DNA of 64,000 bases from Streptomyces sp. NBC_01255 (GTDB lineage Bacteria > Actinomycetota > Actinomycetes > Streptomycetales > Streptomycetaceae), in the NCBI RefSeq assembly GCF_036226445.1, contig NZ_CP108474.1, positions 3,658,001 through 3,722,000 of the forward strand. Reading direction: 5' to 3'. The notes beneath the pieces are model-generated. The model was not told where the DNA came from and did no database searches. It saw only the letters and a list, made by a program, of their open reading frames with translations. The position numbers and the translations under genes are program-made. Shown one piece after another: positions 17,567 to 36,207 of this stretch. Position 1 is the first letter of the stretch, and the number at the start of each line of letters is the position of its first letter.

Positions 17567-18766
17567 TCAGTTGGCGTCGAGGAGCTTCAGCTCGGGGTGA
17601 GCCGTGCCGCCCTCGATCGCCGTGGACGAGATGTGCGAGGCGACGCGCTCGTCGACCGGGTCGTTCGCCGGGTCGTCGTGGACGACGAGGTGCTCGTACG
17701 TCGTGGCGCGCTGCGCCGGGACGCGGTCCGCCGTGCGGATCATGTCGATCATCTCGCGCAGGTTGGAGCGGTGCTTGGCACCCGCCGAGGAGACGACGTT
17801 CTCCTCCAGCATGATCGAGCCGAGGTCGTCGGCGCCGTAGTGCAGGGTCAGCTGGCCGATCTCCTTGCCCGTGGTGAGCCACGAGCCCTGGATGTGCGCG
17901 ATGTTGTCGAAGAACAGCCGGGCGATCGCGATCATGCGCAGGTACTCGAAGAGCGTGGCGTGCGTGCGGCCCTTGAGGTGGTTGTTCTCGGGCTGGTACG
18001 TGTACGGGATGAAGGCCCGGAAGCCGCCCGTCCGGTCCTGCACGTCACGGATCATCCGCAGGTGCTCGATCCGCTCGGCGTTGGTCTCGCCGGTGCCCAT
18101 CAGCATGGTGGAGGTCGACTCGACGCCCAGCTTGTGGGCGATCTCCATGATCTCCAGCCAGCGCTCGCCGCTCTCCTTGAGCGGGGCGATGGCCTTGCGC
18201 GGCCGCTCGGGGAGCAGCTCGGCGCCGGCGCCCGCGAAGGAGTCGAGACCGGCGGCGTGGATGCGGGTGATCGCCTCCTCGACGGAGACGCCGGAGATCC
18301 GGGCCATGTGCTCGACCTCGGAGGCGCCGAGGGAGTGGATGACCAGCTGCGGGTAGGCCTGCTTGATCGCGGCGAAGTGCTTCTCGTAGTACTCGACGCC
18401 GTAGTCCGGGTGGTGGCCGCCCTGGAACATGATCTGGGTGCCGCCGAGCTCCACGGTCTCCGCGCAGCGGCGCAGGATGTCGTCGAGGTCCCGGGACCAG
18501 CCCTTCTTCGTGTCCTTCGGAGCGGCGTAGAACGCGCAGAACTTGCACGCCGTCACGCAGACGTTCGTGTAGTTGATGTTCCGCTCGATGATGTACGTCG
18601 CGATGTGCTCGGTCCCCGCGTACCGGCGGCGGCGCACGGCGTCGGCGGCGGCGCCCAGCGCGTGCAGGGGCGCCGAGCGGTAGAGGTCGAGCGCCTCCTC
18701 GGGGGTGATCCGGCCACCCGCGGCTGCGCGGTCGAGAACAGACTGGAGCTCGGCCTTCTCGGTCAC
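17567..18766 (-). CDS. mqnC: Cyclic dehypoxanthinyl futalosine synthase
   Basis: This 399-aa radical SAM enzyme of the futalosine menaquinone pathway converts dehypoxanthine futalosine to its cyclic form. The cluster motif CVTACKFCAF (Cys 70, 74, 77) is followed by QGGHHPDYGVEYYE and FAGAGAELLPERPRKAI, typical of MqnC. The aligned features RNINYTNVC and FIPYTYQPENN support MqnC over MqnE. It is next to mqnA on the same strand. Confidence 0.95.
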   Translation of the reverse strand: MTEKAELQSVLDRAAAGGRITPEEALDLYRSAPLHALGAAADAVRRRRYAGTEHIATYIIERNINYTNVCVTACKFCAFYAAPKDTKKGWSRDLDDILRRCAETVELGGTQIMFQGGHHPDYGVEYYEKHFAAIKQAYPQLVIHSLGASEVEHMARISGVSVEEAITRIHAAGLDSFAGAGAELLPERPRKAIAPLKESGERWLEIMEIAHKLGVESTSTMLMGTGETNAERIEHLRMIRDVQDRTGGFRAFIPYTYQPENNHLKGRTHATLFEYLRMIAIARLFFDNIAHIQGSWLTTGKEIGQLTLHYGADDLGSIMLEENVVSSAGAKHRSNLREMIDMIRTADRVPAQRATTYEHLVVHDDPANDPVDERVASHISSTAIEGGTAHPELKLLDAN

Positions 18767-18824: not shown

Positions 18825-19751
<927 letters not shown>

Positions 19752-20318: not shown

Positions 20319-21155
20319 TCAGCATGTGGGGATGACCGCCCCGTTGTTGTCGCGGGCCTCGTCGTTGCCCCAGCGTGACAGGTAGTACGCGGACACGTAC
20401 GCTCCGTTGCCGTTCTTCCCGGCGTAGACGGTGTCGAGGTCGGTCCTGAGCCACCAGTGGTTGAAGTTCCCGGAGGCGTCGCGGATCTCCTGGCCCCAGA
20501 CCTTGCAGAAGACGTAGTTCGTGCCCGCGTTCAGCACGCCTTGGGCGTCGTCGGTGTTCGCCTGCGCGTAGCCGGTGGCGTTGGCGAAGGTGTCGACCCA
20601 GTACTTTCCGCCTCCGCCGCCCGAGCAGCCGTTGTCGCTCGTCAGGTACTTGGAGCCGTAGGAGCCCGGGTAGGGGGCGAGGGAGGCGCCGTTGATGACG
20701 ATGGGCTGGCCGACGCCGTTGTAGAGCTGCTCGTAGTGGATGTGGGCGCCGGAGCTGTTGCCGGTGGAGCCGGTGGTGCCGATCTGCTGCCCCTGGGCGA
20801 CCCAGGCGCCGTTGGCGACGGAGTAGGCGTTGAGGTGGAAGTAGTACGTCTTCCAGCCGCTGCCGTGGTCGACCACGATGTAGTTGCCCGCGCCGCTCGG
20901 CTGGGAGTAGCGGTAGGCGGTCCCGGACGCCGAGGCGAGGACCGGGGTGCCGGCCGTCGTGCCGCCGTCGGCGCGGATGAAGTCGAGGGCCTGGCGGACC
21001 TCGGCGGAGTGGTGGCCGTAGGTCCACTTCTGGCCACAGGGGTAGGGGGCCTTGAAGAGCGGCGCCGCCTGGGCGGGGGTGGTCGTGACGAGCGCGGTGA
21101 GCAGGCCCGCGACGAGCGCGAGCAGGGTGCCGAGCGGGGTGATCCGTGCACGCAT
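20319..21155 (-). CDS. Secreted M23 family metallopeptidase
   Basis: This 278-aa protein has signal peptide MRARITPLGTLLALVAGLLT to AQA. It carries a lysostaphin-type M23 domain with the first zinc ligands in YGHHSAEVRQALDF and the HxH motif in SGAHIHYEQL. The C-terminal 90 residues (YWVDTFANATGYAQ to NNGAVIPTC) form a separate Cys-containing module seen in Streptomyces M23 and SH3-like proteins. It probably hydrolyses peptidoglycan cross-bridges or stem peptides. Confidence 0.85.
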   Translation of the reverse strand: MRARITPLGTLLALVAGLLTALVTTTPAQAAPLFKAPYPCGQKWTYGHHSAEVRQALDFIRADGGTTAGTPVLASASGTAYRYSQPSGAGNYIVVDHGSGWKTYYFHLNAYSVANGAWVAQGQQIGTTGSTGNSSGAHIHYEQLYNGVGQPIVINGASLAPYPGSYGSKYLTSDNGCSGGGGGKYWVDTFANATGYAQANTDDAQGVLNAGTNYVFCKVWGQEIRDASGNFNHWWLRTDLDTVYAGKNGNGAYVSAYYLSRWGNDEARDNNGAVIPTC

Positions 21156-22244: not shown

Positions 22245-22335
22245 CGGGGCGTCTTTTCGTACAACCCCCGACCCGGATCACGAGTCAAACAAGCGTGGCG
22301 CTTGCCATGTCTGTTTGTTTTGGGGGGAATTCACC

Positions 22336-24693
22336 TTGCAGAATCGTTTGTCCGGTCGTGGTCGTCACCTCGCCGCCGCTGTGACCGCCGTCCTCGCGAT
22401 CACCGCCGGCACGGCCCTGGCGTCCGGGCCGGCCGCGCTCGCCGCCCCGGCGGGTACCGCCGCCGTCACCGCCGCCACGGAAGCCACCGCCGACGCGACC
22501 GTGCCGTTCCCGGCCGGCGCGAAGATCGCCGGGGCCGGGACCACCGGCTTCCTGACCCGCTCCGAGAGCACCAACGAGCTCCGGTGGACCCGGTACGCGG
22601 ACGGCAGCTCGACCGCCGTCGCGTCCCCTGCCGGCGGTGGCGTCGGCGGCACCGGCACGGACATCCTGGTGGTCGGTGACTCCGCCGCCCCGCACCTGAT
22701 GCGTACCGTCACGCTCCTGGACATGTCCGTGCCCGTCGTCGACCGCCCCGCCGTCGTGGTCTCCTTCGACCTCGGCTCACTGGGGGCCACCTACGTCCAG
22801 GCCGTCGGCCCGCGCACCGTCCTCGCCAAGGCGCCCGTCAACGGCGCCCCCGGCGAGAAGCTGCTCCTCGTCACCGAGGAGAACGACGGCATCCACAGCC
22901 GCGAGGTGACCGGCCTCCCCGCCGACGCGAACGGCTTCTTCGCCGACGCGCCCGTCGTCGACGGCAAGATCCTCGTCGGTTACGAGACCGGCTCCTCCGA
23001 CCTGCGCACCGGCGCCCGTGCCGTCATCGACGTGACCACCGGCGCGGTCGTCGAGACGTACCCCGCCGGCGTGTCCGACTCCCTCTCCTCCCTCCACTCC
23101 CAGCTGGCCCTCTCGGCCACGCACGTCGCCTGGACCGCGTTCTCCGAGGACGACGGCATCGTCTACACCACGGTGGACCGGAAGACCCGCGTCACGAAGC
23201 GGCACACCTTCGCCCTCACCGACGAGTACTTCGTCGGCCTGGTGGGCAACTGGCTGGTGTACGGCGCCCCGAGCAAGCTCACCGACAACGGCACGTTCCC
23301 GAACACGAAGGTGCAGGCCGTCGACCTGACGGCGGGCGAGCTCTCCGAGCCCACCCAGATCTCCGAGCCCGTCCAACTCGCCGACTACGCCACCTCCATG
23401 GAAGCCGCGTCGGACGGCTCCCTGCTCGTGCGCGGCGGCACGGTCGCGCAGGGCGAGGGCCTCTACCGGGTCTCCACCCCCGGGGGCGGGCAGCTCGCCG
23501 TCGAGAAGGTCGCGACGACGGAGCAGCCCACCGCCCTGACCTATCTCGGCTCCCAGGTGCCGGCCGTCGTCGACTTCGACCGGGACCGCGAGGTCGAGCT
23601 GAAGTGGCGGATGTCCCGGCTCAACGCCGACGTCCAGCTGAAGCTCACCCACAAGAAGACGGGCCAGACCTACTCCCGCCTGCTGGAGCTGCGCCGCGAC
23701 TATCCGTCCCGGCACACGTTCGACGACATCACCTTCGGCATCACCTGGCAGGGCCTCGTCGACGACCTCTCGCCGGGCGACAAGTCGGCCTTCAACGGCG
23801 ACTACACCTGGTCCTTCCGGGCCGTTCCGCAGAACGGCATCGGGCCGGCGGTCGAGCAGTCGGGCACCTTCAGGGTGGTCCGCTCGGCCAAGCCGCACGA
23901 CTACAGCGACAACGGCTCGCCGGACCTGTTCGCCAAGGACGCGGGCGGCACGCTGTGGCGCGTCGACACCACGTACGACGCGGCCACGAAGCGGCTGGCT
24001 CCCACGTACCAGAGGACCCTGGTCGGCTCCGGCTGGAATGCGTACGACCAGATCGAGTCCGTCGGGAACGTCGCGGGCACGACCGCGGCCGACACGATCG
24101 CCCGTGACGCGTCGGGCGTGCTGTGGCTGTACCAGGGCACCGGCGACGAGACGAAGCCGCTGGGGACCCGTACGAAGATCGGCCCCGGCTGGCAGACGTA
24201 CAAGCACCTCGCCGGCGGCGGCGACCTGACCGGGGACGGCCGCGCCGACCTCGTCGCCCAGGACAGGGCGGGCGACCTCTACCTCTACAAGGGCACGGGC
24301 TCGGCCGGCACTCCCTTCGGCGCCCGTACGAAGATCGGCGGCGGCTGGGGCGGCTACAACCAGCTGACGGCCGTCGGGAACCTCGCCGGAGGCCCGGCCG
24401 GTGACCTCCTCGCCCGTGACACGGCCGGCGTGCTGTGGCTGTACCTCGGCAAGGGCGACGGCACCTTCGCCGGCCGCACCAAGGTCGGCGGCGGCTGGGG
24501 CGGTTACACGGAGCTCGTCGGCATCGGCGACGGCAACAAGGACGGCCGCCCCGACCTGTACGCGTACGGCGGCTGGAACCGCGCCGCCGCCTTCTACGCC
24601 GGTACGGGCAACTGGAGCGCGCCCTTCGCGGGCGGGACCGACGCGATCAAGGTCCTGGAGTACGGCGGCGCCGGCTACCAGCGCGTCTTCTGA
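22336..24693 (+). CDS. Secreted FG-GAP/VCBS repeat protein 1
   Basis: This 785-aa protein has a TTG start preceded by GGGGGGAA; an in-frame ATG at 22315 is less likely because the signal peptide (RGRHLAAAVTAVLAITAGTALA) would be displaced. Three parts are visible. The first is a predicted all-beta N-terminal region of about 400 aa beginning with the shared GAGTTGFLTR to LRWTRYADGS block. The second is a FlgD/Ig-like linker (FNGDYTWSFRAVPQNGIGP, near 23790). The third is a C-terminal FG-GAP propeller with Ca-loop motifs such as GDLTGDGRADL and GDGNKDGRPDL and the repeated WLYxGTGD / RTKIGGGWGGY strands. It is the first of five paralogues. FG-GAP propellers usually mediate binding to glycans or proteins outside the cell; no catalytic motif is visible. 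Confidence 0.85.
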   Translation: MQNRLSGRGRHLAAAVTAVLAITAGTALASGPAALAAPAGTAAVTAATEATADATVPFPAGAKIAGAGTTGFLTRSESTNELRWTRYADGSSTAVASPAGGGVGGTGTDILVVGDSAAPHLMRTVTLLDMSVPVVDRPAVVVSFDLGSLGATYVQAVGPRTVLAKAPVNGAPGEKLLLVTEENDGIHSREVTGLPADANGFFADAPVVDGKILVGYETGSSDLRTGARAVIDVTTGAVVETYPAGVSDSLSSLHSQLALSATHVAWTAFSEDDGIVYTTVDRKTRVTKRHTFALTDEYFVGLVGNWLVYGAPSKLTDNGTFPNTKVQAVDLTAGELSEPTQISEPVQLADYATSMEAASDGSLLVRGGTVAQGEGLYRVSTPGGGQLAVEKVATTEQPTALTYLGSQVPAVVDFDRDREVELKWRMSRLNADVQLKLTHKKTGQTYSRLLELRRDYPSRHTFDDITFGITWQGLVDDLSPGDKSAFNGDYTWSFRAVPQNGIGPAVEQSGTFRVVRSAKPHDYSDNGSPDLFAKDAGGTLWRVDTTYDAATKRLAPTYQRTLVGSGWNAYDQIESVGNVAGTTAADTIARDASGVLWLYQGTGDETKPLGTRTKIGPGWQTYKHLAGGGDLTGDGRADLVAQDRAGDLYLYKGTGSAGTPFGARTKIGGGWGGYNQLTAVGNLAGGPAGDLLARDTAGVLWLYLGKGDGTFAGRTKVGGGWGGYTELVGIGDGNKDGRPDLYAYGGWNRAAAFYAGTGNWSAPFAGGTDAIKVLEYGGAGYQRVF

Positions 24694-24764
24694 CGCACGG
24701 CAGCCCCCCGCTTCCCCTTCTGGTTCCGACGACTGATTCCGACGACTACAGAGGAAACGATCCT

Positions 24765-27050
24765 TTGTCTCTATCGCGTACTCCCCGACGTCACCTCGCC
24801 GCTGCCGTCACCGCCCTCCTGGCGCTGACGGCCGGCACGGCACTCGCCGTCACCCCCGCCACGGCGGCCCCCGTCCCCGGCCCGGCAATCGTGCAGACGG
24901 CCGAGGCGATCGGCACGATCCCGCAGGGCGCGCGGGTCACCAGCGCCGGGGCCACCGGCTTCCTCAGCACGGTCCGGCACTACGACCCCTTGAGGACCGA
25001 CTACCTCTGGACGAAGTACGCCGACGGCTCCACCACCCTCCTGAACACTCCGAACACCGGCTTCTTCGGACAGGGTTCGGACATCGTCTGGGGCGCCACG
25101 CCCGGTTCACTCTCGTACTCGATGTACGACATGGCCAACCCGGGAACCACCGTGGGCGGCGTCACGATGAACAACGGCACCTCCTCGCGCGGGGTCATCG
25201 GCTCGGCGCTCGTGACCGTCACCGAGGACCGCTACACCGGCGCCGTGCGAGTCGAGATCCTCCGAGGGAGCAAGTACCCGACGCCCCCCATCCCCGTACC
25301 CGGCATCCCGGGCAACGCCAACGTGACCAAGGTCGTCCTCACGACGCCCGGCACGGCCGTCATCGTGTACGAGACGGGCAGCGGCGCAACCCTCCGCTAC
25401 CACCTGGCCGCCGTGGACACCGAGACCGGCGAGGTCCTGGAGACGCGCCCGGCGGGCTCGCTGGAGTTCGGCGACGTCGCGCTCTCCGCGACCCACTGGT
25501 CCTGGATCGAGTACGACTACCCCGACGGACCGCTCGGCGGGAAGCGCGTCGCCCTCCTCCACACCGCCCCGCGCGGCGGCGGCGCGACCACCACCACCAA
25601 CCTGGGCATCGTCGGCGCCAGTGAGGTGATGCGCACGGGTCTCCTGGGCGACTGGGTGACCTACACCAGCGTCGGTGGCTACCAGTCCTACGGTCCGTCG
25701 CCGCACTACCCGCTGGTCGCTCGCCCCCTCGGCGGCGGGACGCCGGTCAAGCTCCTCGACCACGTCGTCACCGCGGTCTCGGACACCGACGGCAACCTCG
25801 TCGTGCGCGGCGGCAGCCTCACCGAGGGCGCGGGCTCGGGCGAGGGCGTCTACAAGGTCTCGGCGAACGCGACGGGCGGCGCACCGACCGTCACCACGGT
25901 CGCGACCGCGAACACGCCGACGGCGCTCGGGATCGTCTCCCAGGACGCCGCCCCGACCGTGGTCGACCTCGACAAGAGCCAGGGGGCGAGATTCAGCTGG
26001 ACCCTGACCCAGGCGAACGTGGACGGCACGTTCACGCTGAAGCACACCCGCACCGGCAAGACCGAGCAGATCCCCGTCTGGACCGACAACCCGACGGCCA
26101 ACCCGCACAACAAGGCCACCGTCGACTGGTCGGGCAGGCTCGTCTCCTCCTCCCTCGACGCCTACAACGGCGACTACACCTGGGAGCTCCGCGTCAAGCC
26201 GCGCAGCGGCATCGGCCCCGAGGTGAAGAAGACCGGCGCCCTCAAAGTGGTCCGCAAGACCGCCGCGCACGACTACTCCGACAACGGCACCCCGGACTTC
26301 CTCTCCCGGGACTCCGCCGGCCGGGTCTGGCGCGACGACATCAACAGCAGGACGCCGCAGGACGGCGTCCCCACGTCCACACACACGCTGCTCGGCTCCG
26401 GCTGGGGCGTCTACAGCCATATCGAGGCCGTGGGCAACGTCGCCGGTGCCTCCGTGAGCGATGTCGTCGCCAAGGACAAGGACGGCAACCTCTGGCTGTA
26501 CCTCGGCAAGGGCGACGGCACCTTCGCGCCCCGCACCAAGATCGGCCCCGGCTGGAACGCGTACAACAAGATCACCGGCGGCAGTGACGTCAACGGCGAC
26601 GGCTGGTCCGACCTCTTCGCCACCGACACCTCCGGCGTCCTCTGGCTCTACAAGGGCACGGGCAACTGGCGTACCCCCTACGGCAGTCGGACGCGGGTCG
26701 GCGGCGGCTGGGGCGCCATGAACCAGATCACCGCCACCGGCGACCTCGGCGGCACCGTCCACGGCGACCTCGTCGCCCGTGACACGACCGGCGTCCTCTG
26801 GCTGTACCCGAGCACGGGCACCGGCACCTTCGGCGCGCGCGTGCGCGTCGGCGGCGGCTGGGGCGGCTACACCCACCTCGTCGGCGCCGGCGACATCAAC
26901 GGCGACGGCCGCGCCGACCTGTTCGCGTACAGCCCGGCCGGCGGCTCGTACGTCCACCAGGGCACGGGCAGCCTCTCGACCCCGTTCGCCCCGCGCACGA
27001 GCATCGGCGTCTACCTGCCGGGCTCGACGGCGCACAACCCGGTCATCTGA
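24765..27050 (+). CDS. Secreted FG-GAP/VCBS repeat protein 2
   Basis: This 761-aa paralogue has its TTG start 8 nt after GAGGAAA, followed by signal peptide RRHLAAAVTALLALTAGTALA. It has the same order as the first protein: N-terminal block with GATGFLS and LWTKYADGST, Ig-like linker YNGDYTWELRVKPRSGIGP (about 26165) and FG-GAP repeats with SDVNGDGWSDL and GDINGDGRADL. Strand motifs WLYLGKGDGTF and RTKIGPGW recur. It lies 71 nt after protein 1. Divergence is greatest in the N-terminal propeller, suggesting different ligands. Confidence 0.85.
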   Translation: MSLSRTPRRHLAAAVTALLALTAGTALAVTPATAAPVPGPAIVQTAEAIGTIPQGARVTSAGATGFLSTVRHYDPLRTDYLWTKYADGSTTLLNTPNTGFFGQGSDIVWGATPGSLSYSMYDMANPGTTVGGVTMNNGTSSRGVIGSALVTVTEDRYTGAVRVEILRGSKYPTPPIPVPGIPGNANVTKVVLTTPGTAVIVYETGSGATLRYHLAAVDTETGEVLETRPAGSLEFGDVALSATHWSWIEYDYPDGPLGGKRVALLHTAPRGGGATTTTNLGIVGASEVMRTGLLGDWVTYTSVGGYQSYGPSPHYPLVARPLGGGTPVKLLDHVVTAVSDTDGNLVVRGGSLTEGAGSGEGVYKVSANATGGAPTVTTVATANTPTALGIVSQDAAPTVVDLDKSQGARFSWTLTQANVDGTFTLKHTRTGKTEQIPVWTDNPTANPHNKATVDWSGRLVSSSLDAYNGDYTWELRVKPRSGIGPEVKKTGALKVVRKTAAHDYSDNGTPDFLSRDSAGRVWRDDINSRTPQDGVPTSTHTLLGSGWGVYSHIEAVGNVAGASVSDVVAKDKDGNLWLYLGKGDGTFAPRTKIGPGWNAYNKITGGSDVNGDGWSDLFATDTSGVLWLYKGTGNWRTPYGSRTRVGGGWGAMNQITATGDLGGTVHGDLVARDTTGVLWLYPSTGTGTFGARVRVGGGWGGYTHLVGAGDINGDGRADLFAYSPAGGSYVHQGTGSLSTPFAPRTSIGVYLPGSTAHNPVI

Positions 27051-27128
27051 CACGTCGGTGTCGTGACGGGCCTGACTGGCCCGAGGCATTCCGGATAGTC
27101 GTACAACCTTGCGACGCACTCGGAGGTC

Positions 27129-27161
27129 ATGTGGGTGCGGCGTGGATCGCCGCACCCACAT
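27129..27161 (+). promoter_or_regulatory. Perfect 14-bp hairpin in front of FG-GAP gene 3
   Basis: ATGTGGGTGCGGCG and CGCCGCACCCACAT flank a 5-nt loop. The structure ends about 20 nt before the TTG start and just before the GAGGGAGAA ribosome site. There is no T-tract. It may be a terminator of the upstream unit, an mRNA stabiliser or a translation control element. Confidence 0.75.
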
Positions 27162-27182
27162 CACTCGAGGGAGAACTCCGTT

Positions 27183-29426
27183 TTGTCCCACACCGGTTCG
27201 TCCCGCCGCCACCTCACCGCCGCCGTCGCCGTGGCCCTCGCCGCCGCCTGCGCGGGCACGTTCACGACGGGCGTGGCCCTCGCCACCACCGAGACGACGA
27301 CCGCCGTTTCGAGCGGTACGGCCCAGGAGAGTGCCGCCGCGCTCCTGCCGAACTCGTACGTGACCGGCAACGGACCGACGGGCTTCCTGTCCGTCCGCTG
27401 GGCCGCTCCTTCCGGCGGGCAGTCGGAGTACCGATGGACGCGGTACCAGGGCGGCGTCACCACCCTCCTGCCCGCGGGCACGTACGAGGGCAGCGCCGGC
27501 TCGGACGTGATCGTGAAGAAGGTCAACGGGACGACGTACAACCTGTACGACATGGCCACGGGCGTCGCCCCCGTCGTCATCGACACCACCTCCGTCGGCG
27601 CGACCGCCCGGCTCGTACGGGCCGAGGGCTCGACCCTCGTCATGGAGGTCCCGCGCGCCGGGGGCGGCTCGGACGTCCACCTCGTCGGCAAGGCGGCCGA
27701 CGGGACCCTCCTGAACCGCAAGGTCGCCGGGGTTCCCGACACCACCTCCGTCCGCTCCTACTTCCCGGTCGCGCCGGGCGAGCTGCTCGTCCGCTACTGG
27801 GACTCCGCCCAGAGCGTCCTGCGCGCGCTCCTCGTGGACGTCGCCACGGCCAAGGTCACGGAGAACCGGGTGCTCACCGAGAGCATCGCGAGCCCCGACG
27901 TGACCGCCTCCGCCACCCATGTGGTCTGGAGCGAGTACGCCAGCGACACCACCACGGCCCTCTGGCTGGCCAAGCGCGGCCAGGAGGGCGCCACGCGGGT
28001 CCCCGTGGGCTCGAACGCGACGCTGGCGCTCGGGGTCCTGGGCGACGACTGGGTGGCGTACGGCGATCCGCGAGGGTTCGCGACGGCCAGGCCCAACCCC
28101 CTGCACGCCCTGACGGTCCGCTCGCTGACCGACGGCCGCACGGTCAAGCTCCTCGACCTCGTGCACCGTGTCGTCCCCACCGGCGACGGCACCCTCCTCG
28201 TCCAGGGCTCCACGCTCGCGCAGGGCGAGGGCCTCTACCGGCTCACGGTCGGCGCGGACGGCGAACCGGCCGCCATCCTCGTCGCGAGCACGGGCCGCCC
28301 CCTCGTGTACACGGTCACCGGCGTGACGGTCCCCGCGACCGTCGACTTCTCCGTCGCCAGGAACGGCGTGCCGCTGAAGTGGCAGGGCAGCGGCAGCAGC
28401 GTCGGGAAGGTGACCCTGGAGCTGACGCACACGGCGACGGGGGCCCGCGCGACCTTGGGCGCGACCACGCAGGGGGCCGTCAGCCTGAACTGGGGCGGCA
28501 CCTTCGACAACGGCACGGCCGTCCACAACGGCGACTACACCTGGCGACTGACGACCGTGCCCTACAACGGGATCGGCGAGAAGGCGGAGCTGACGGGCTC
28601 GTTCAAGGTCATCGGCCGGCCGGCGGACCACGACTTCTCGAACAGCACCTCGCCCGACCTGCTCTTCCGCAGTGGCGGCCGGCTCTCCGTCTTCGACGCC
28701 CGACAGTTCCTGGACAGCAACACAACGGACCCGCTGTCGGAGGTCGTCGTCGGATCCGGCTGGGACACGTACGACCGGATCGTCACCCCCGGAAACCTGG
28801 GCGGCACCGTCCACGCCGACCTGCTCGGCCGGGACAAGAGCGGCGTGCTGTGGTCGTACGCGGGCACCGGCATTCCGTCCGTCCCCTTCAAGACGCGTAC
28901 GAGGGTCGGCGGCGGCTGGGGGATCTACAACAAGATCACCGCCGGCCTCGACGTCAGCGGCGACGGCCGCCGCGACCTCCTGGCCACCGACAAGGACGGC
29001 GCCCTGTGGCTCTACAAGGGCACGGGCTCCATCACCTCTCCCTTCCGGCCGCGGGTGAGGGTCGGCGGCGGCTGGGGGATCTACAACAAGATCACCGCCA
29101 CCGGGAACATCGGCGGCGGCCCCGCCGGAGACCTCATCGCCCGAGACAAGGACGGCGTCGACTGGCTCTACCTCGGCAAGGGCGACGGCACGTTCGCCGC
29201 CCGGACCCGGATCAGCAGCGACTGGGGCTACTACACCGACCTGATCGCCGTCGGTGACGCCGACCGCGACGGCCGGTCCGACCTCGTCGTCCGTCATGTG
29301 ACCGGCGGCGACACGGGCAGCCTCCTCTTCTACCCCGGCAGCGGCGACTGGCGGAACCCCTTCCCGAAGGAGGTGTCGATCGACTCGTCGCGGCGGTTCG
29401 TCCGTGACGGCACCCTGATGTTCTGA
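27183..29426 (+). CDS. Secreted FG-GAP/VCBS repeat protein 3
   Basis: This 747-aa paralogue starts at TTG (MSHTGSSRRHLTAAVAVALA signal) behind GAGGGAGAA. The N-terminal block has GPTGFLS and YRWTRYQGGVTTLLP, the linker HNGDYTWRLTTVPYNGIGE, and the FG-GAP part LDVSGDGRRDLLATDKDG and GDADRDGRSDL. The repeat tract 29062-29119 is identical over 58 nt to 31331-31388 in gene 4. The final blade differs (HVTGGDTGSLLFYPGSGDW). Same probable extracellular binding role as its neighbours. Confidence 0.85.
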   Translation: MSHTGSSRRHLTAAVAVALAAACAGTFTTGVALATTETTTAVSSGTAQESAAALLPNSYVTGNGPTGFLSVRWAAPSGGQSEYRWTRYQGGVTTLLPAGTYEGSAGSDVIVKKVNGTTYNLYDMATGVAPVVIDTTSVGATARLVRAEGSTLVMEVPRAGGGSDVHLVGKAADGTLLNRKVAGVPDTTSVRSYFPVAPGELLVRYWDSAQSVLRALLVDVATAKVTENRVLTESIASPDVTASATHVVWSEYASDTTTALWLAKRGQEGATRVPVGSNATLALGVLGDDWVAYGDPRGFATARPNPLHALTVRSLTDGRTVKLLDLVHRVVPTGDGTLLVQGSTLAQGEGLYRLTVGADGEPAAILVASTGRPLVYTVTGVTVPATVDFSVARNGVPLKWQGSGSSVGKVTLELTHTATGARATLGATTQGAVSLNWGGTFDNGTAVHNGDYTWRLTTVPYNGIGEKAELTGSFKVIGRPADHDFSNSTSPDLLFRSGGRLSVFDARQFLDSNTTDPLSEVVVGSGWDTYDRIVTPGNLGGTVHADLLGRDKSGVLWSYAGTGIPSVPFKTRTRVGGGWGIYNKITAGLDVSGDGRRDLLATDKDGALWLYKGTGSITSPFRPRVRVGGGWGIYNKITATGNIGGGPAGDLIARDKDGVDWLYLGKGDGTFAARTRISSDWGYYTDLIAVGDADRDGRSDLVVRHVTGGDTGSLLFYPGSGDWRNPFPKEVSIDSSRRFVRDGTLMF

Positions 29427-29466
29427 CCCGCCACCCGACCTGCGCAGCCGAAGAGAGAACAGAGCC

Positions 29467-31674
29467 TTGACGCGTACGAGAAGCACCCGGTACCGCTTCG
29501 CCCTCGCCACGGCCGTGGCCACCGCCCTCGCCGTGACGGCGGGCGGGACGGCCGGGGCCTCCGCGCCGACGACCTCGTTCGCGGCGACGGTGGCGGCGGA
29601 GCAGAACATCGCCGTCCCGTTCCCGGTCGACGCGACGGTCGTGAGCGCCGGTCCGACCGGCTTCCTCAGCGCCCAGAGCGGCGAACAGCTCACCTGGCGG
29701 TGGACGCGGTACGCGGACGGCGTCGCGACCGTGCTCCCGCCGGGCTCGTACCGGGGCGCCAAGCAGACGGACATCGTGGCGAGGACCGACGGGAGCGGCG
29801 TCTACACGCTGTCCGACATGGCGACGGGAGGCGACCCGCTGGAGGTCGACACCCGCCCCCTGGGCGAGGGTTACACCCTCGCCGGGGTCGCGGGCAGCAC
29901 CCTCGTCATGAGGAAGGCCGCCGCGACCGGCGGCACGGAGCTCCACCTCGTCGGGAAGGAGCAGGGCGTCCTCGTCGACCACACGGTGACCGGGCTGCCC
30001 GCCGAGATCGTGAACCCCTTCGTCATCGTGGACTCGCCCGGCACCGTGCTGGTCCGGTACACGGTCACGGTGGACGGGGTGAAGCGGAGCCGCGTGACCA
30101 TCGTGGACGTCGCGACCCACGCGGTCGTCGAGGAGCACGAGACGTCCGACGTCCCGGTCATCGGCATGGCCCTGTCGGCGACCCACATCGCCTGGGTCGA
30201 GAAGCCGGCCGACTCGACGGTGAAGGTGGCCGTGGCGCGGCGGGGCGGCACCGCCGAGACCGTTCGCCACGACACGGGCAGCACGGGCAACGTGGCCATC
30301 CAGATCGTGGGCGACTGGCTGACGCACCGGCGTTACTCGGTCAACGCGCCCACCACGGCGAACCCCCTGTACTCGCTGTACGCCCGCCCCCTGTCGGGTG
30401 GCGAGCCGGTCAAGCTCCTGGAACACACGCTGACCTCCACGGCCGGCCCCGACGGAACCCAGCTCGTGCGGGGCGGGACCTTCGAGCACGACGAGGGCCT
30501 CTACCGCATCGCCCCCGGCACCGCCGGTGCCCGGCCCGTCGCCACCCTCGTCGCGAGCACCGGCCAGCCCACCACCCTGGAGCTGGCGAGCCACACCGTC
30601 CCCACGACGCTCGACCTCGACCTGCCCGGCGCCGGCGCCCTGACCTGGACCTTGAGCCGGGGCGCGAACGCGGGCCTCGAACTCGTCCACAAGGCGACCG
30701 GGAAGACGGCGACGCCGGGCCTCCCCACCATCACCGAAGGAGTCCACACCGCGCGCTGGGACGGTCTCTTCGACGACGGCATCACCGCCTACAACGGCGA
30801 GTACACGTGGAAACTGACGGCGACGCCCTGGGACCGCGTCGGCCCCGACCTCGTCCGCACCGGCACCTTCAAGCTCCTCCGCAAGCCCACCTCGCACGAC
30901 TTCAACGACAACGGCAGCTCGGACCTGCTCCTGCGGAACGACCTCGGTGAGCTGCTGGTGCACGACAGCCACATGGACCCCTACCAGCGGGGACCGGTCT
31001 GGCAGAAGAGGGCCCCTGTACGGATCGGCACCGGCTGGAACACCTACGACCAGGTGCTCGTCGCGCCCGGGAACATCGCCGGATCCGCGTACGCGGACAT
31101 CGTCGCCCGCGACCGGTCGGGGGTCCTCTGGCTCCACCAGGGCGCCGGGCGGACCCTCGCGCCCCGGGTACGCGTCGGCGGCGGCTGGCAGATCTACGAC
31201 CGGATCACCGGCGGCGGCGACATGAGCGGCGACGGCCGCCCCGACCTCCTCGCCACCGACAAGGCCGGCGTCCTGTGGCTCTACAAGGGCACCGGATCCG
31301 CCACCGCCCCGTTCTCGAAGGCCGTGCGGATCGGCGGCGGCTGGGGGATCTACAACAAGATCACCGCCACCGGGAACATCGGCGGCGGACCCGCCGGTGA
31401 CCTCGTCGCCCGCGACAAGGACGGCGTGCTGTGGCTCTACCTCGGCAAGGGTGACGGCACGTTCGCCCCCCGGACCCGGATCGGCGGCGGCTGGGGCACC
31501 TTCCCGCCCACCGCGATGGGCGACGTCGACCGCGACGGGCGGCCGGACCTCGTGGCGTACCGCAACGAGACGGTGTACTTCGCCAAGGGCACCGGGGACT
31601 GGAAGGCACCCTTCGCGCCCGTCCGGGAGTCCACGTACCTGCCGACCAACTCGTACGCCCCGACGGTGTTCTAA
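29467..31674 (+). CDS. Secreted FG-GAP/VCBS repeat protein 4
   Basis: This 735-aa paralogue has a TTG start behind GAAGAGAGAA and signal peptide RFALATAVATALAVTAGGTAG. It shows GPTGFLS, WRWTRYADGVATVLPP, the linker YNGEYTWKLTATPWDRVGP and FG-GAP loops GDMSGDGRPDLLATDKAG and GDVDRDGRPDL. It is 40 nt after gene 3. Its stop overlaps that of the convergent ATPase gene by 4 nt (CTAA), so transcripts from the two strands meet here. Confidence 0.85.
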   Translation: MTRTRSTRYRFALATAVATALAVTAGGTAGASAPTTSFAATVAAEQNIAVPFPVDATVVSAGPTGFLSAQSGEQLTWRWTRYADGVATVLPPGSYRGAKQTDIVARTDGSGVYTLSDMATGGDPLEVDTRPLGEGYTLAGVAGSTLVMRKAAATGGTELHLVGKEQGVLVDHTVTGLPAEIVNPFVIVDSPGTVLVRYTVTVDGVKRSRVTIVDVATHAVVEEHETSDVPVIGMALSATHIAWVEKPADSTVKVAVARRGGTAETVRHDTGSTGNVAIQIVGDWLTHRRYSVNAPTTANPLYSLYARPLSGGEPVKLLEHTLTSTAGPDGTQLVRGGTFEHDEGLYRIAPGTAGARPVATLVASTGQPTTLELASHTVPTTLDLDLPGAGALTWTLSRGANAGLELVHKATGKTATPGLPTITEGVHTARWDGLFDDGITAYNGEYTWKLTATPWDRVGPDLVRTGTFKLLRKPTSHDFNDNGSSDLLLRNDLGELLVHDSHMDPYQRGPVWQKRAPVRIGTGWNTYDQVLVAPGNIAGSAYADIVARDRSGVLWLHQGAGRTLAPRVRVGGGWQIYDRITGGGDMSGDGRPDLLATDKAGVLWLYKGTGSATAPFSKAVRIGGGWGIYNKITATGNIGGGPAGDLVARDKDGVLWLYLGKGDGTFAPRTRIGGGWGTFPPTAMGDVDRDGRPDLVAYRNETVYFAKGTGDWKAPFAPVRESTYLPTNSYAPTVF

Positions 31675-32096
31675 GGCGCGAGCGGGACCGGCGGAACGGT
31701 GGGGATGGTCGCCCAGACCGTCTTGCCGACGGACCGGTCCTTCACGCCCCACGCGGTCGCGAGGGCGGCTACGAGCAGCAGCCCGTAGCCGCCCTCGTCG
31801 GGCTGCCCGGACGGTAACGGGCGGCGCTCGCCCCGCGCGTCGGAGAGCTCGATGCGTACGTGGTCGTCGGCGCGTTCCATCCGCACCTCGAAGTCCCTCC
31901 CCGGCACCCGGCCCTGAAGGGCGGCGTTGCTCGCGAGCTCGGCGACGACCAGTTCGGCCGCCTCGGCGGCGGAACCGGTCACGCCCCACTCGTGGAGCTG
32001 CTGCACGGCGAGTAGCCGCGCCAGACGTGCGCCCCGGCGCGTGGCCGAGAGCCGGAGCGTGAACTCACCGGTTGGGGTGGCGGTTTCGGACTTCAT
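31671..32096 (-). CDS. Anti-sigma-type ATP-binding protein (HATPase_c_2)
   Basis: This 141-aa histidine-kinase-like ATPase domain has no dimerisation part. The N-box ELVVAELASNAAL, the D in IELSDARG and the G-box GGYGLLLVAALATAWG are recognisable. In Streptomyces these short ATPases are often encoded beside an XRE regulator and a DUF397 protein (abaA/whiJ-type clusters). That is the case here, with the XRE gene starting 91 nt away on the opposite strand. It may act as an anti-sigma or partner-switching protein. Confidence 0.88.
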   Translation of the reverse strand: MKSETATPTGEFTLRLSATRRGARLARLLAVQQLHEWGVTGSAAEAAELVVAELASNAALQGRVPGRDFEVRMERADDHVRIELSDARGERRPLPSGQPDEGGYGLLLVAALATAWGVKDRSVGKTVWATIPTVPPVPLAP

Positions 32097-32187
32097 GCCC
32101 CTGAGAGTGGTGGGTGCGCCCTACGCTGAACAGCAGCGACGCGACGACGTTGAGTCACTGTACGGGTGCGCCAAGAGGGCGGTACGG

Positions 32188-33051
32188 ATGTCGGGCAACG
32201 AGGAGGAGCGGCCGGAACGGCCCTCCGAAGCGGACGGTACGGCGCACTTGTTTCGTGCGCTCGGAAAGATCATCAAGGTGCTGCGGAAGAACGCGGGCCT
32301 GAGCCAGGCGGAACTGGCCGACATCACGCATTGCAGCGAGGACCTGATCTCCTCCATGGAGCGGGGCGTACGAATCCCCCAACCGGACTTCCTGATCCGG
32401 GCGGACCCCGTGCTGAACGCGGGCGGGGTGTTGGTGGCGGCTGTGGATGATCTACGGGACGCCCAGGCGAGGGCGCGGGTGCGGCACCCGGACTGGTTCC
32501 GGAGCTTCGCTGCGGCGGAAGCTTTGGCGGTTGCCCTGCACTACTACGAAGTACAGGCGGTGCCTGGCCTGTTGCAGACGGAGGCATACGCACGGGCCGT
32601 GATGCGCCATCGGCGGCCCGTCTGGGACGAGCAGACGATTGAGAAATGGGTGGCCGACCGCTTGGCCCGCCAGTCGCTCTTCGACAAGTGGCCAGCGAAG
32701 ACGATCAGCTTCGTCCTGGAGGAGGCCATTCTGCGCCGCCCCACCGGCGGCCTCAGCGTCCACCACGAACAACTGCGCCGCATCCTGGACATCGCCAGTC
32801 GGCGCACGGTCCATCTCCAGGTGATGCCACTGACGAGGAAGGACCACCCCTCCCTCGACGGCGCGTTCACGCTGCTGACGCCGCAAGGGCGGCGCGAGGT
32901 CGCTTACACCGAGATCTACGGCCACGCTCGGCTGATCACCGACCCTGAAGAGGTACGTGTGTACGCAGAGCGCTATGGGATCATCCGGGCGCAGGCACTC
33001 ACGCCCCGCGAGTCCCTGGAGTTGATCGAGAAGATGCTGGGAGAGCTATGA
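32188..33051 (+). CDS. XRE-family regulator with DUF5753 (WhiJ-like)
   Basis: This 287-aa protein has an N-terminal helix-turn-helix (IIKVLRKNAGLSQAELADITHCSEDLISSMERG) followed by DUF5753 (about 100-280). The DUF5753 part includes YEVQAVPGLLQTEAYARAV and PLTRKDHPSLDGAFTLL. ATG at 32188 is used because AGAGGGCGG precedes it and the HTH is complete. The stop overlaps the DUF397 start by 4 nt. WhiJ-type regulators act with DUF397 proteins in Streptomyces development; the target is unknown, but flanking FG-GAP genes are candidates. Confidence 0.9.
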   Translation: MSGNEEERPERPSEADGTAHLFRALGKIIKVLRKNAGLSQAELADITHCSEDLISSMERGVRIPQPDFLIRADPVLNAGGVLVAAVDDLRDAQARARVRHPDWFRSFAAAEALAVALHYYEVQAVPGLLQTEAYARAVMRHRRPVWDEQTIEKWVADRLARQSLFDKWPAKTISFVLEEAILRRPTGGLSVHHEQLRRILDIASRRTVHLQVMPLTRKDHPSLDGAFTLLTPQGRREVAYTEIYGHARLITDPEEVRVYAERYGIIRAQALTPRESLELIEKMLGEL

Positions 33052-33242
33052 GCACCACCGATCTGGCCTGGTTCAAGAGCAGCTACAGCAGCGGCGAGGG
33101 CGGCAACTGCATCGAAGTCGCCGCGCACCCCACCACCATCCACCTCCGCGACTCCAAAGTCCCCCACGGCCCCCAGCTCGCCGTATCGCCCGCGACGTGG
33201 TCCGCGTTCGTCTCGTACGCTGCGTTTCCTAAGCAATCATGA
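33048..33242 (+). CDS. DUF397 small protein
   Basis: This 64-aa protein has the canonical DUF397 signature LAWFKSSYSSGEGGNCIEVA, LRDSKVPHGPQLAVSPATWSAFV. It overlaps the XRE gene by 4 nt. Proteins of this family are the usual partners of WhiJ-like regulators and may antagonise them. Confidence 0.93.
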   Translation: MSTTDLAWFKSSYSSGEGGNCIEVAAHPTTIHLRDSKVPHGPQLAVSPATWSAFVSYAAFPKQS

Positions 33243-33298
33243 GGAGCGGGCGCGGTGTTGAGTGACACCGGGCCCGCATCCCTGGGGGGATACGCATC

Positions 33299-35509
33299 AT
33301 GAATCACGCGCACATACGCGGCCGTCGGCTCGCCGTGGCCGTCACCGCCGTGCTCGCCGTCTCCGCCGTCGGCGGGACGCTCGTCACCGCGCCCGCAGCG
33401 GTGGCCGCCGTCGCCGCCCCGGCCGCGCCGCTGGACGCGCAGGACATCACGTTCCCGGCGGGCGAGAAGCTCGTCAGCGCCGGGACCGCCGGGTTCCTCA
33501 CCTCGAAGGACGACGGCGCGGGCGGGTCCGCACTGACGTGGACGTATTTCGACGACGGCGTCACGTGGCCGGTTCCGTCATCGGTCGCGTACCAGAGCCG
33601 TTCGGACACGATCGTCACCCGCGACGGGTACCGCTTCATCCTGCGGGACATGAGCGGGAACGGGGTCTCGACCTACGTGGAGCCGGTCGGGCTCGGGGCG
33701 GGCTACAAGGTCGCCGGGGCGGCCGGTTCGACGCTCTTCCTGAGCGTGCCGAACCCGACGTACGGGGGCGAGGACCTCTACCGGCTCACCCGGGTGAACG
33801 GCGTGCAGCAGCAGGAGAAGATCACGCCCTTCGGCCGCGGCCGTGACTACAAGGTCCTGTCCCACTCGCTCACCAGCGTGGTCGTCGTCTACACGGAGGA
33901 CGGCAGCACCGGACCGATGTACCGCCGCGCGCTGGCGGACCTCGGCGGCGGTTTCCTGAAGGAGGAGCGGGCCCTCCTGGCGTTCGACCCGGCCACGGTC
34001 ACGACCGCGATCAGCCCGTCGTACATCGCGTGGACGGAGTACGTGGACGGCGCCGCCAGGGTGGCGATCGAGAAGCGGAGCGAGTACGCGCCCTTCAAGC
34101 GCGTCTCGCTGGGCGCGGGCTCCAAGGGTGTCGTGGTCGGGTTCTCCGGCGACTGGGTGCTGTACGGCGTGCCGGACGGGCTCACGGCCCCGACGGCCAA
34201 CCCGCTGCACGCTCTGACCGCGCAGAACGTGCTCACCAGCGAGACAGTGACGCTGCTCGACCACTTCACGTCCACGTCGACCGCGCCCGACGGAAGCATC
34301 TACGTCCAGGGCGGGAAGTCGACCGACGGGGAAGGACTGTTCAAGATCACGGAGGGCGACCACCCGACGGCCTCGCTGATCGCGGGCACCCCCGGCGCGT
34401 CCACCGCGCCGACCGTCCTCGGCAGCACGGTCCCCGGCGTGGCGGACCTCGACCGCAACGGCGGTCAGGTCGCCATGGAGTGGCAGCTCTCCCGGTACAA
34501 CGTGAACATGGACGTCACCCTGCGGCACACCGCGACCGGGAAGACGTACACGAAGCGCCTCACGCGGCCTGCCGCGCCCGCGCGGCTCACGTGGGACGGG
34601 CTGACCTCGGACGGGTTCAGCGCCCCGAACGGCGACTACACCTGGAACGTCACCCTGACGCCGACCAACGCCATCGGGTACCCGGGATACGCGTCGGGCG
34701 CCTTCAAGGTGACCCGGAAGGCCAACCCGCACGACTACAGCGACAACGGTTCGGCCGACCTGCTCGCGCGGGACGCGTCGGGCGTGCTGTGGCGGGACGA
34801 CCTGCTCGACTGGCCGGTGGGCGGTCAGGTGACGCCGGCGAAGCCCCGCGTCAAGATCGGCAGCGGGTGGAACACGTACAACCTGATCGAGGCGGCCGGG
34901 AACAACGGCGGCTCCGCCGTCGGTGACGTCCTCGGACGGGACACGGCCGGTGTGCTGTGGAACTACCCCGGCAAGGGCGACGGCACGTTCGGGACCCGGA
35001 TCAAGGTCGGCCCCGGCTGGGGCGTCTACAACAAGCTCGCCGGCGGGTCCGACCTGAACGGTGACGGCAAGGCCGACCTCGTCGCCACCGACGCGTCCGG
35101 CCTGCTGTGGTTCTACAAGGGCACGGGCAGCTCCACCGTGCCGTACGCCGGCCGCGTGAAGATCGGGCCCGGCTGGGGCGTCTACAACCAGCTGACGGCC
35201 GTCGGGAACATCGCCGGGGGTGTCGCCGGGGACCTCGTCGCCCGGGACGCGGCGGGCGTGCTGTGGCTGTACCTCGGGAAGGGCGACGGTACGTTCGCGG
35301 CCCGGACCAAGATCGGTACGGGCTGGGGCGGTTACAGCCAGCTCGTGGGCGCCGGCGACACGAACAACGACGGCCGGCCCGACCTCGTCGCGTACGGGTC
35401 GGCGGGGACGCACGTGTTCCTCGGGACGGGGTCGTGGTCGGCGCCGTTCACGAAGACGACGACCTCGCTGTACGCGGGCGAGGGGACCAAGTTCACGTCG
35501 GTGTCGTGA
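33299..35509 (+). CDS. Secreted FG-GAP/VCBS repeat protein 5
   Basis: This 736-aa paralogue, unlike the other four, starts with ATG (behind GGGGGGATA). The signal peptide RRLAVAVTAVLAVSAVGGTLV leads to the shared AGTAGFLTS block, linker PNGDYTWNVTLTPTNAIGY and FG-GAP repeats with SDLNGDGKADLVATDASG and GDTNNDGRPDL. It is separated from protein 4 by the ATPase/XRE/DUF397 triad and lies 56 nt after the DUF397 gene, so it may be co-transcribed with the regulator. A hairpin follows the gene. Confidence 0.85.
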   Translation: MNHAHIRGRRLAVAVTAVLAVSAVGGTLVTAPAAVAAVAAPAAPLDAQDITFPAGEKLVSAGTAGFLTSKDDGAGGSALTWTYFDDGVTWPVPSSVAYQSRSDTIVTRDGYRFILRDMSGNGVSTYVEPVGLGAGYKVAGAAGSTLFLSVPNPTYGGEDLYRLTRVNGVQQQEKITPFGRGRDYKVLSHSLTSVVVVYTEDGSTGPMYRRALADLGGGFLKEERALLAFDPATVTTAISPSYIAWTEYVDGAARVAIEKRSEYAPFKRVSLGAGSKGVVVGFSGDWVLYGVPDGLTAPTANPLHALTAQNVLTSETVTLLDHFTSTSTAPDGSIYVQGGKSTDGEGLFKITEGDHPTASLIAGTPGASTAPTVLGSTVPGVADLDRNGGQVAMEWQLSRYNVNMDVTLRHTATGKTYTKRLTRPAAPARLTWDGLTSDGFSAPNGDYTWNVTLTPTNAIGYPGYASGAFKVTRKANPHDYSDNGSADLLARDASGVLWRDDLLDWPVGGQVTPAKPRVKIGSGWNTYNLIEAAGNNGGSAVGDVLGRDTAGVLWNYPGKGDGTFGTRIKVGPGWGVYNKLAGGSDLNGDGKADLVATDASGLLWFYKGTGSSTVPYAGRVKIGPGWGVYNQLTAVGNIAGGVAGDLVARDAAGVLWLYLGKGDGTFAARTKIGTGWGGYSQLVGAGDTNNDGRPDLVAYGSAGTHVFLGTGSWSAPFTKTTTSLYAGEGTKFTSVS

Positions 35510-35518
35510 TGACGGTCG

Positions 35519-35539
35519 CCTGACCCGGTACGGGTCAGG
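35519..35539 (+). terminator. Hairpin after FG-GAP gene 5
   Basis: CCTGACCC and GGGTCAGG form an 8-bp stem with a 5-nt loop, 10 nt past the stop. There is no T-tract, which is common for Streptomyces terminators. Confidence 0.55.
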
Positions 35540-35583
35540 GCCTGCCGGTCGCGCCTCGGACCGCTCGTCGTAGCATCCGGGGC

Positions 35584-36207
35584 GTGACCTCCAGGACCTT
35601 CGTTCTCTTCGACGTCGACGGCACCCTCATGGACGCCGTCGCCAACCAGCGCCGCATGTGGCACGAGTGGGCCGCGCGGTACGGGCTCGACGGGGACGAG
35701 GTGTACGCCGTCGCCCTGCGGACGCGACCCGTCGAGACCTTCGCGGCCGTCGCCCCGGGACACGACCCGGACGAGTGCCTCGCCCTGCTGCACGAGCTGG
35801 AGGACGAGGACGTCCGTACGGGCACGTACACGGCCTTCGACGGGGCCGCCGAGCTGCTCGCCGGCCTTCCGGCGGACCGGTGGGCGCTGGTCACGTCGAA
35901 CTACGAACACCGGGTGCGGGGGCGCTTCGAGCGGACCGGGCTGCCGCTGCCCGGGCTGATCGTGGACGCGGCCTCGGTGGCCGAGGGGAAGCCGTCCCCT
36001 GTCCCGTACCTGCTCGCGGCCGAGAAGCTGGGCGCGGATCCCGCGGAGTGCCTGGTCATCGAGGACGCTCCGTCGGGGGTCCGCTCGGGGCTCGCGGCCG
36101 GGATGACGGTCTGGTCGGTCAACGGGCCGGAGCTGGTGGAGGGCGCCCATCGCCACTTCGACACGCTCGCGGAGGCGGCCCCGCACGTCCTGGCCGCTCT
36201 GAGCTAG
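35584..36207 (+). CDS. HAD-family hydrolase (sugar-phosphatase-like)
   Basis: This 207-aa HAD phosphatase has motif I LFDVDGTLMD (nucleophile and acid Asp), motif II VTSNY, motif III Lys in EGKPSP and motif IV IEDAPSGVRSG. The alpha-helical cap between motifs I and II is the beta-phosphoglucomutase/GPP type. GTG start. It is a probable small-phosphate-ester phosphatase; the substrate is not predictable. Downstream is repeat-rich non-coding DNA. Confidence 0.88.
   Translation: MTSRTFVLFDVDGTLMDAVANQRRMWHEWAARYGLDGDEVYAVALRTRPVETFAAVAPGHDPDECLALLHELEDEDVRTGTYTAFDGAAELLAGLPADRWALVTSNYEHRVRGRFERTGLPLPGLIVDAASVAEGKPSPVPYLLAAEKLGADPAECLVIEDAPSGVRSGLAAGMTVWSVNGPELVEGAHRHFDTLAEAAPHVLAALS

Follow-up and report, generated by a model that had tools for sequence, protein, structure and literature searches.

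An array of secreted twin-propeller proteins in Streptomyces sp. NBC_01255 as one site of a family that may form a recognition repertoire

Why does a Streptomyces genome keep several different copies of a large secreted propeller protein side by side? This question is raised by a locus of Streptomyces sp. NBC_01255, which was analysed as a window of 64,000 nucleotides (nt) (contig NZ_CP108474.1, positions 3,658,001 to 3,722,000; all coordinates below are those of the window unless a locus is named). A sequence-only reading of the window had proposed an array of five secreted FG-GAP paralogues of 735-785 amino acids (aa) at 22336-35509, four of them consecutive with gaps of 40-132 nt, and both proposals are borne out. 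Five open reading frames (ORFs) with signal-like starts lie on the forward strand, each encoding a secreted twin-propeller protein: P1 (22336..24693, 785 aa), P2 (24765..27050, 761 aa), P3 (27183..29426, 747 aa), P4 (29467..31674, 735 aa) and P5 (33299..35509, 736 aa). P1 to P4 are consecutive, with gaps of 71, 132 and 40 nt, and these four of the five genes start with TTG, while P5 starts with ATG. TTG was also the commonest guessed start among family genes (41 of 77), by a rough start-codon guess that misplaced the start of P3. As judged by the N-terminal domain, the 8.57 Mb genome has P1-P5 as full-length members, with two weak matches to the immunoglobulin-like (Ig) part besides.

We favour, at a little better than an even chance, the explanation that this array is one of the places where a lineage-restricted multigene family is found, and that it encodes a co-regulated repertoire of secreted, non-enzymatic, two-headed lectin-like recognition proteins. 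The members combine a signal-like N-terminus, a propeller, an Ig spacer and a lectin-type C-terminal propeller; old paralogues stand side by side in sets that vary; and a promoter-like box with a covarying leader hairpin precedes many of them.

A signal-like hydrophobic stretch was recognised by eye at the N-terminus of all five proteins, which have no Cys beyond residue 35 and no LPxTG motif. P2-P5 align to P1 over the whole length at 39-43% identity. Three motifs had been described as common to the five proteins; GxxGFL is indeed present in every one, but only P1 and P4 have WTRYADG in its exact form, and NGDYTW is exact in four of five (NGEYTW in P4). A hidden Markov model search and structure prediction had been proposed as checks. 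Pfam FG-GAP_3 was found in 5/5 paralogues, and the P5 model (mean pLDDT, the predicted local distance difference test, 87.4) shows two propellers flanking an Ig domain. In this model a signal region (aa 1-49) precedes an N-terminal propeller (aa 50-377, 33446..34429), in which seven blades were counted from the modelled strands, a FlgD-like Ig domain (aa 378-477, 34430..34729) and a C-terminal VCBS/tachylectin-type propeller (aa 478-736, 34730..35506), in which five blades were counted. The Ig-like linker suggested earlier thus stands in the P5 model, with FlgD_ig matched in only three of the five proteins, at scores under its gathering score. The nearest fold to the modelled C-terminal propeller is the five-bladed tachylectin-2, unlike the seven-bladed integrin form, and by sequence the domain is related to PVL-type N-acetylglucosamine (GlcNAc) lectins; Pfam Tachylectin was matched in 2 of 52 family members. 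The modelled N-terminal domain is nearest to the propellers of S9 peptidases, and Foldseek with the whole P5 model gave multi-propeller matches of low template modelling (TM) score. Calcium-type loops of the form D.[DNST].[DN]G number three in P1, P2, P4 and P5 and two in P3; since this is two or three of about five blades, the earlier description of these loops as intact was only partly right.

The C-terminal propeller also occurs elsewhere in the genome. The C-module of P5 has 28 matches there, the array genes accounting for five, and the C-propeller is 35-51% identical to stretches of other ORFs. Ten of these other ORFs were scanned, and fusions to an amidase (one), nuclease-like domains (three) and a protease inhibitor (one) were found. 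At G000:C1:5150782-5156872, two adjacent ORFs, each about 570 aa long and with many FG-GAP matches, form a second small propeller tandem; one of them was among the ten scanned.

The two propellers have evolved at different rates. Mean identity over ten paralogue pairs is 32% for the N-propeller, 38% for the Ig domain and 52% for the C-propeller, and in a GC-aware pairwise codon model applied to 11 orthologue pairs the median omega was 0.168, 0.121 and 0.104, respectively. Omega of the N-propeller exceeded that of the C-propeller in 10 of 11 pairs (sign test p=0.012), in agreement with the earlier claim that the N-terminal halves diverge more. NG86 gave much higher ratios, probably from the high GC content, and was superseded by the codon-frequency model. 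Because the C-propeller module is widespread in this genome, the contrast partly reflects conservation of that module, beyond fast evolution of the N-domain. The omega point estimate was below 1 in 32 of the 33 domain comparisons, the sole exception being the N-domain of a 97%-identical P4 pair (1.13, indistinguishable from 1), and pairwise omega over these comparisons does not support positive selection. In two pairs from different species, P2 with its Root431 counterpart and, in the P4 group, L101 with L104, the C-domains are much closer than the N-domains, which hints at recombination.

Within the N-propeller, mean entropy is 2.89 bits in the BC and DA loops (69 positions) versus 1.88 bits in the AB and CD loops (52 positions; p 4e-11), and it differs likewise between the BC (35 positions, 2.96 bits) and CD (33 positions, 2.06 bits) loops, which are of similar length. 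As mapped on the modelled strands, the loops on one predicted face account for most of the variability, as expected of a diversifying binding surface. The earlier proposal of diversifying ligand binding on a common scaffold is partly supported, by this one-face variability, by the faster evolution of the N-domain within orthologue pairs and by the recurrence of arrays.

The family is lineage-restricted and occurs in a minority of Streptomyces. Full-length matches were found in 12 of 150 Streptomyces genomes, this one included, with a split match in a thirteenth (G119). At 1e-10, 47 of the 150 have some match, the remainder being roughly the first 320 positions within longer ORFs, or the Ig part. 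At 1e-30, at least 9 of 121 genomes and at least 2 of 17 genera were positive in a family-wide sample, and at least 5 of 296 genomes and at least 1 of 114 genera in a class-wide sample; these distribution figures are lower bounds from a first look that scored 11, 14 and 5 candidates per genome. Named carriers include S. exfoliatus, S. nymphaeiformis, S. zaomyceticus, S. gardneri and Root431, and the 61 database relatives comprise 56 from Streptomyces and one from Actinacidiphila. Longer relatives (about 1,000-1,200 aa; L095, L096, L097 and L099) carry the N-propeller and the Ig part with about 300 extra residues between them, and matches of this longer type are present in many genomes of the genus.

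Comparison of gene neighbourhoods, which had also been suggested, showed that homologues are not merely single unlinked genes but recur as arrays. At nine loci (the window, L065-L068, L101, L103, L104 and L108) two to six adjoining family genes lie at one syntenic site, beside a menaquinone-biosynthesis gene called mqnA here (in the window at 18825..19742, reverse strand, Pfam VitK2_biosynth); L103 and L108 end within the array. An M23 gene is present at six of these loci, a DJC28_CD gene at seven and a mycothiol-transferase-type gene at five, by our own gene calling. No family gene was found at mqnA in 16-kb stretches from 20 other genomes, and family genes at other sites are singles or pairs. 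In a tree of 80 N-domains, built without three duplicate loci and without matches that were partial or weak, each of P1-P5 falls in a group of its own, together with relatives from other species. The nearest relative lies within the same array for only 5 of 52 array members, equally for N- and C-domains, and concerted evolution within arrays was rejected on this count. It follows that the arrays are collections of old paralogues, kept without homogenisation and varying in content; one Root431 gene (L100:4929), for example, has no close counterpart in this array. Since arrays recur and the N-domain evolves faster than the C-domain, neither of the outcomes that had been named as fatal to the idea of a system, namely single unlinked genes of well-known role or N-terminal regions that evolve no faster, was found.

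The sequence-only reading overlooked two features of the locus: an abaA-whiJ-bldB cassette between P4 and P5, and a promoter-hairpin element before P1 and P3. The element, common to many members of the family, consists of GTACAACC-N17-GTC followed directly by a covarying 13-bp hairpin. Before P1 it spans 22259..22327 on the forward strand (box 22259-22266, GTC 22284-22286, hairpin 22286-22317; 61.3 bits, z -1.87) and before P3 27101..27172, also forward (box 27101-27108, GTC 27126-27128, hairpin about 27129-27161; 72.1 bits, z -4.67). A weak forward-strand copy before P5 (33224..33290; 21.3 bits, z -4.29) has the hairpin (33246-33277) without the box. GTACAACC lies upstream of 32 of 79 family genes, one of 80 upstream regions being too short to count, versus 0 of 717 other genes at the same loci, and GTACAAC-N18-GTC was found in 33 of the 80 regions. 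The hairpin starts 0-1 nt past GTC in 22 of these 33 boxed leaders. Arms pair at 93% with their own partner and at 48% when swapped between members, and the median arm length is 13 pairs versus 7 in shuffled leaders; the arms were chosen for best pairing, and for that reason the shuffle is the fair control. In 19 of the 33 leaders, selected because their hairpins are strong and alike in size, 94.7% of the 13-bp helix is paired, and both-side changes occur somewhere in 12 of the 14 pairs of the whole structure. The covariation score was reached by none of 500 shuffles, and slid partners gave 0.06-0.16 versus 0.585.

A covariance model built from these 19 leaders, R1, was used to scan 72 sources (1.27 Mb), mostly family or mqnA loci. 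Of its 73 matches, 54 were checked for a downstream family gene and the other 19 are antisense, partial or under about 17 bits. Full-length sense matches of at least 26.6 bits number 41, the 19 training leaders plus 22 new ones (12 previously known from the box and 10 not), and 40 of the 41 have a family N-domain within 900 nt downstream, although four of these genes are split or partial (L094, L114, L112:5193 and L117). The remaining match (L067:18584-18657) precedes a truncated remnant, which closes an array of six genes and retains just the final portion of a family C-propeller. Seven of the 54 checked matches lack a downstream family gene: this remnant, one antisense match and five of 21.7 bits or less. 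Among the best 150 of 13,642 candidates in the NBC_01255 genome, the only sense matches are those before P3, P1 and P5, plus an antisense match at P3. Eight GTACAACC-N17-GTC sites occur in this genome versus two for a control pattern, and only the two at the array have the hairpin.

When 150 candidates were scored in each of 20 other genomes, an R1 match at E 0.01 was found in 8 of the 10 genomes that carry the family and in 2 of the 10 that lack it (29.5 and 27.8 bits in these two). The sole match in G074 lies off the family, and G110 and G036 have none at this threshold. The element is not wholly exclusive to the family. Five off-family matches were opened, of which three lie directly before other secreted or membrane-associated ORFs and two have no convincing downstream gene. 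A GTACAACC-type box stands before such unrelated ORFs at L170:1724-1800, L172:5053-5110 and L168:4117-4192 (as GTGCAACC in L168), with a visible hairpin at L170 and L168. The promoter class may serve a wider secreted-protein regulon.

The promoter-hairpin element appears to be a new regulatory element. Rfam gave nothing above gathering in 22000-36000 of the window, with one below-gathering match at 31760-31811 on the reverse strand. According to the available text of PMC6767563, SigmaE-type extracytoplasmic function (ECF) promoters of S. coelicolor resemble the element in AAC at -35, GTC/TC at -10 and a spacing of 16-17 nt; they show, for example, GGCAACC and CGTC, whereas the element has GTACAACC and AGTC/GGTC and adds the covarying hairpin. 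As a comparison of short motifs, the likeness of the box to sigmaE promoters appears too loose to name a sigma factor. The position of the hairpin at the -10 box could mean either an atypical start point, or outer pairs that act in DNA, or an RNA element. The P5 hairpin is kept without a box both in the window and in Root431, which favours a role for the hairpin in RNA.

How the parts might work together can be outlined as follows. The C-propeller could dock on a glycan, such as a cell-wall polymer or an extracellular polysaccharide, while the N-propeller would recognise a different partner in each paralogue through its one variable loop face. The shared upstream element, with an ECF-sigma-type promoter and a structured 5' leader, would make the members a co-regulated set. 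P1-P2 and P3-P4 may be read as two operons, with P5 read separately or together with the whiJ-bldB genes. Several different old paralogues would then provide a recognition repertoire, as the umbrella-toxin lectins do. A stronger form of this proposal is put forward only tentatively, being rather doubtful as it stands: a new, dispersed and co-regulated recognition repertoire, with the lectin propeller as common anchor and the face of the second propeller as specificity, all switched on by an ECF-type promoter joined to a leader hairpin whose structure, but not its sequence, is conserved and for which Rfam has no matching family.

Several points weigh against a recognition repertoire. The genome uses the C-propeller widely as an accessory module, and its conservation in P1-P5 is therefore no proof that they share a ligand. 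Omega of neighbouring genes (22 pairs from four locus pairs) is 0.01-0.21 with a median of 0.062, a range that overlaps that of the family. The strand labels of the loop-face test were re-phased from the blade sequence pattern after the first result had been seen, and the test was run on this propeller family alone. The exact GTACAACC is absent from 47 of 79 family genes, arms are of eight pairs or fewer in 7 of 33 boxed leaders, and weaker copies of the element precede unrelated secreted proteins. Finally, the N-domain has a few conserved Asp, Arg and Lys residues that could belong to an active site.

This last point belongs to the view that the proteins are secreted enzymes with a catalytic N-propeller and the C-propeller as carbohydrate-binding module, which is also suggested by the fusions of the C-module to amidase and nuclease-like domains and by the S9-peptidase-like fold of the N-domain. 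We regard it as unlikely, as no peptidase or other catalytic Pfam domain was found in P1-P5 and neither His, Glu nor Cys is among the N-domain positions under 1.2 bits.

The cassette inside the array raises a second alternative, improbable to a similar degree, that these are developmental surface or spore-coat proteins under its control. An abaA-type HATPase_c_2 protein (31671..32096, reverse strand), a whiJ-type helix-turn-helix (HTH)-DUF5753 regulator (32188..33051, forward) and a bldB-type DUF397 protein (33048..33242, forward) lie side by side between P4 and P5. The same three genes make up the abaA-whiJ-bldB cassettes described in the accessible part of PMC10294661, although here the cassette interrupts an array of secreted-protein genes; the same part reports that WhiJ9 activates a neighbour gene in S. 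venezuelae. A DUF5753 gene lies within 3 kb of 5 of 22 family sites in six genomes, versus 0.31 expected. However, these five sites fall into two groups of orthologous sites, 5 of 20 other genomes have whiJ close to mqnA with no array there, and Root431 (L100:9550-9850) keeps the array and both cassette ends between its P4 and P5 orthologues despite deletion of the cassette middle. The WhiJ9 operator pattern CGNNCTCAAC has one match in the window, at 62980, away from the array. The sequence GTTGAGTSAC occurs twice in the window, at 32149 and at 33257 before P5, but it was not found in 18 other loci and its second copy lies within the P5 hairpin; it was treated as a coincidence and rejected as a WhiJ-related site. 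In an anti-phage library, P1-P5 had no match and the whiJ protein had weak HTH matches.

Less probable still is that there is no diversified function, old paralogues simply persisting and drifting with an N-domain under less constraint. The omega estimates below 1 and the genome-wide conservation of the C-module agree with this, but the bias of variability to one face, purifying selection on both propellers and the maintenance of a shared structured leader by compensatory changes do not.

The described proteins that come closest are the UmbA lectins, which the earlier reading missed when it said that it knew of no described Streptomyces system of this form; none was found among the literature matches listed, where no paper on these arrays or on the element appeared. 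According to the available portions of PMC11062931 and PMC13274773, UmbA lectins are likewise secreted by Streptomyces, have a variable propeller lectin and come in several kinds in one genome, and the portion of PMC13274773 describes Streptomyces as recognising rival species by diversified propeller lectins. Like UmbA, the present family has a C-terminal lectin-type domain, which by its sequence is a relative of chain C in the umbrella-particle entry 8w20 (a chain that we infer to be UmbA1) and appears from the model to resemble UmbA4 in fold. As far as those portions describe it, the N-domain of UmbA is trypsin-like and binds UmbB, and the divergent part is the pockets of its propeller; in the present family the P5 model shows a propeller as N-domain, Pfam trypsin was found in none of the five proteins, and it is the second propeller that varies while the lectin-type one is conserved. 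Membership of the umbrella toxins was rejected on the N-domain, and a search for UmbC ALF repeats gave no match here but also none in its 14 control genomes. That P1-P5 are orphan UmbA-like lectin subunits of umbrella toxin particles is thus very improbable, despite the likeness of the C-propeller and the orphan umbA genes reported for S. coelicolor in the available text, since the N-domain differs and the scanned flanks of the window match metabolic, regulatory or no families and no toxin family, with genes beside other arrays mostly unannotated. The PVL-type lectins and tachylectin-2, placed in the VCBS superfamily in the accessible text of PMC9218822, are like the C-domain in blade sequence and fold: homologous blades form the propeller, and cation loops are present in the looser form given above. 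Tachylectin-2 has five blades as here, whereas the sequence is nearer to PVL-type lectins, and in this family an Ig domain and a second propeller precede the C-propeller in the same protein.

Upstream of the array, and conserved with the arrays like mqnA, is mqnC (17567..18766, reverse strand), an NCBIfam equivalog above cut-off, and an M23 peptidase gene lies at 20319..21155 (reverse strand). Other flanking genes encode a cold-shock protein, a HAD phosphatase, an APH-type kinase, a TetR regulator, a DUF4267 protein and an alpha/beta hydrolase, and three more have no family match. Downstream, at 36721-37494, is an APH-type phosphotransferase-family gene for which named resistance models score far below their cut-offs.

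The element itself raises a question, in that the hairpin begins where transcription should start and yet its outermost pairs covary. If the favoured explanation is true, Streptomyces would possess, besides UmbA, another class of secreted recognisers that vary, its layout being opposite to that of UmbA, the lectin being conserved and the second propeller variable. Such recognisers would be encoded as arrays that differ between relatives, so far without a linked toxin, and the shared promoter-hairpin element predicts which of their members are expressed together.
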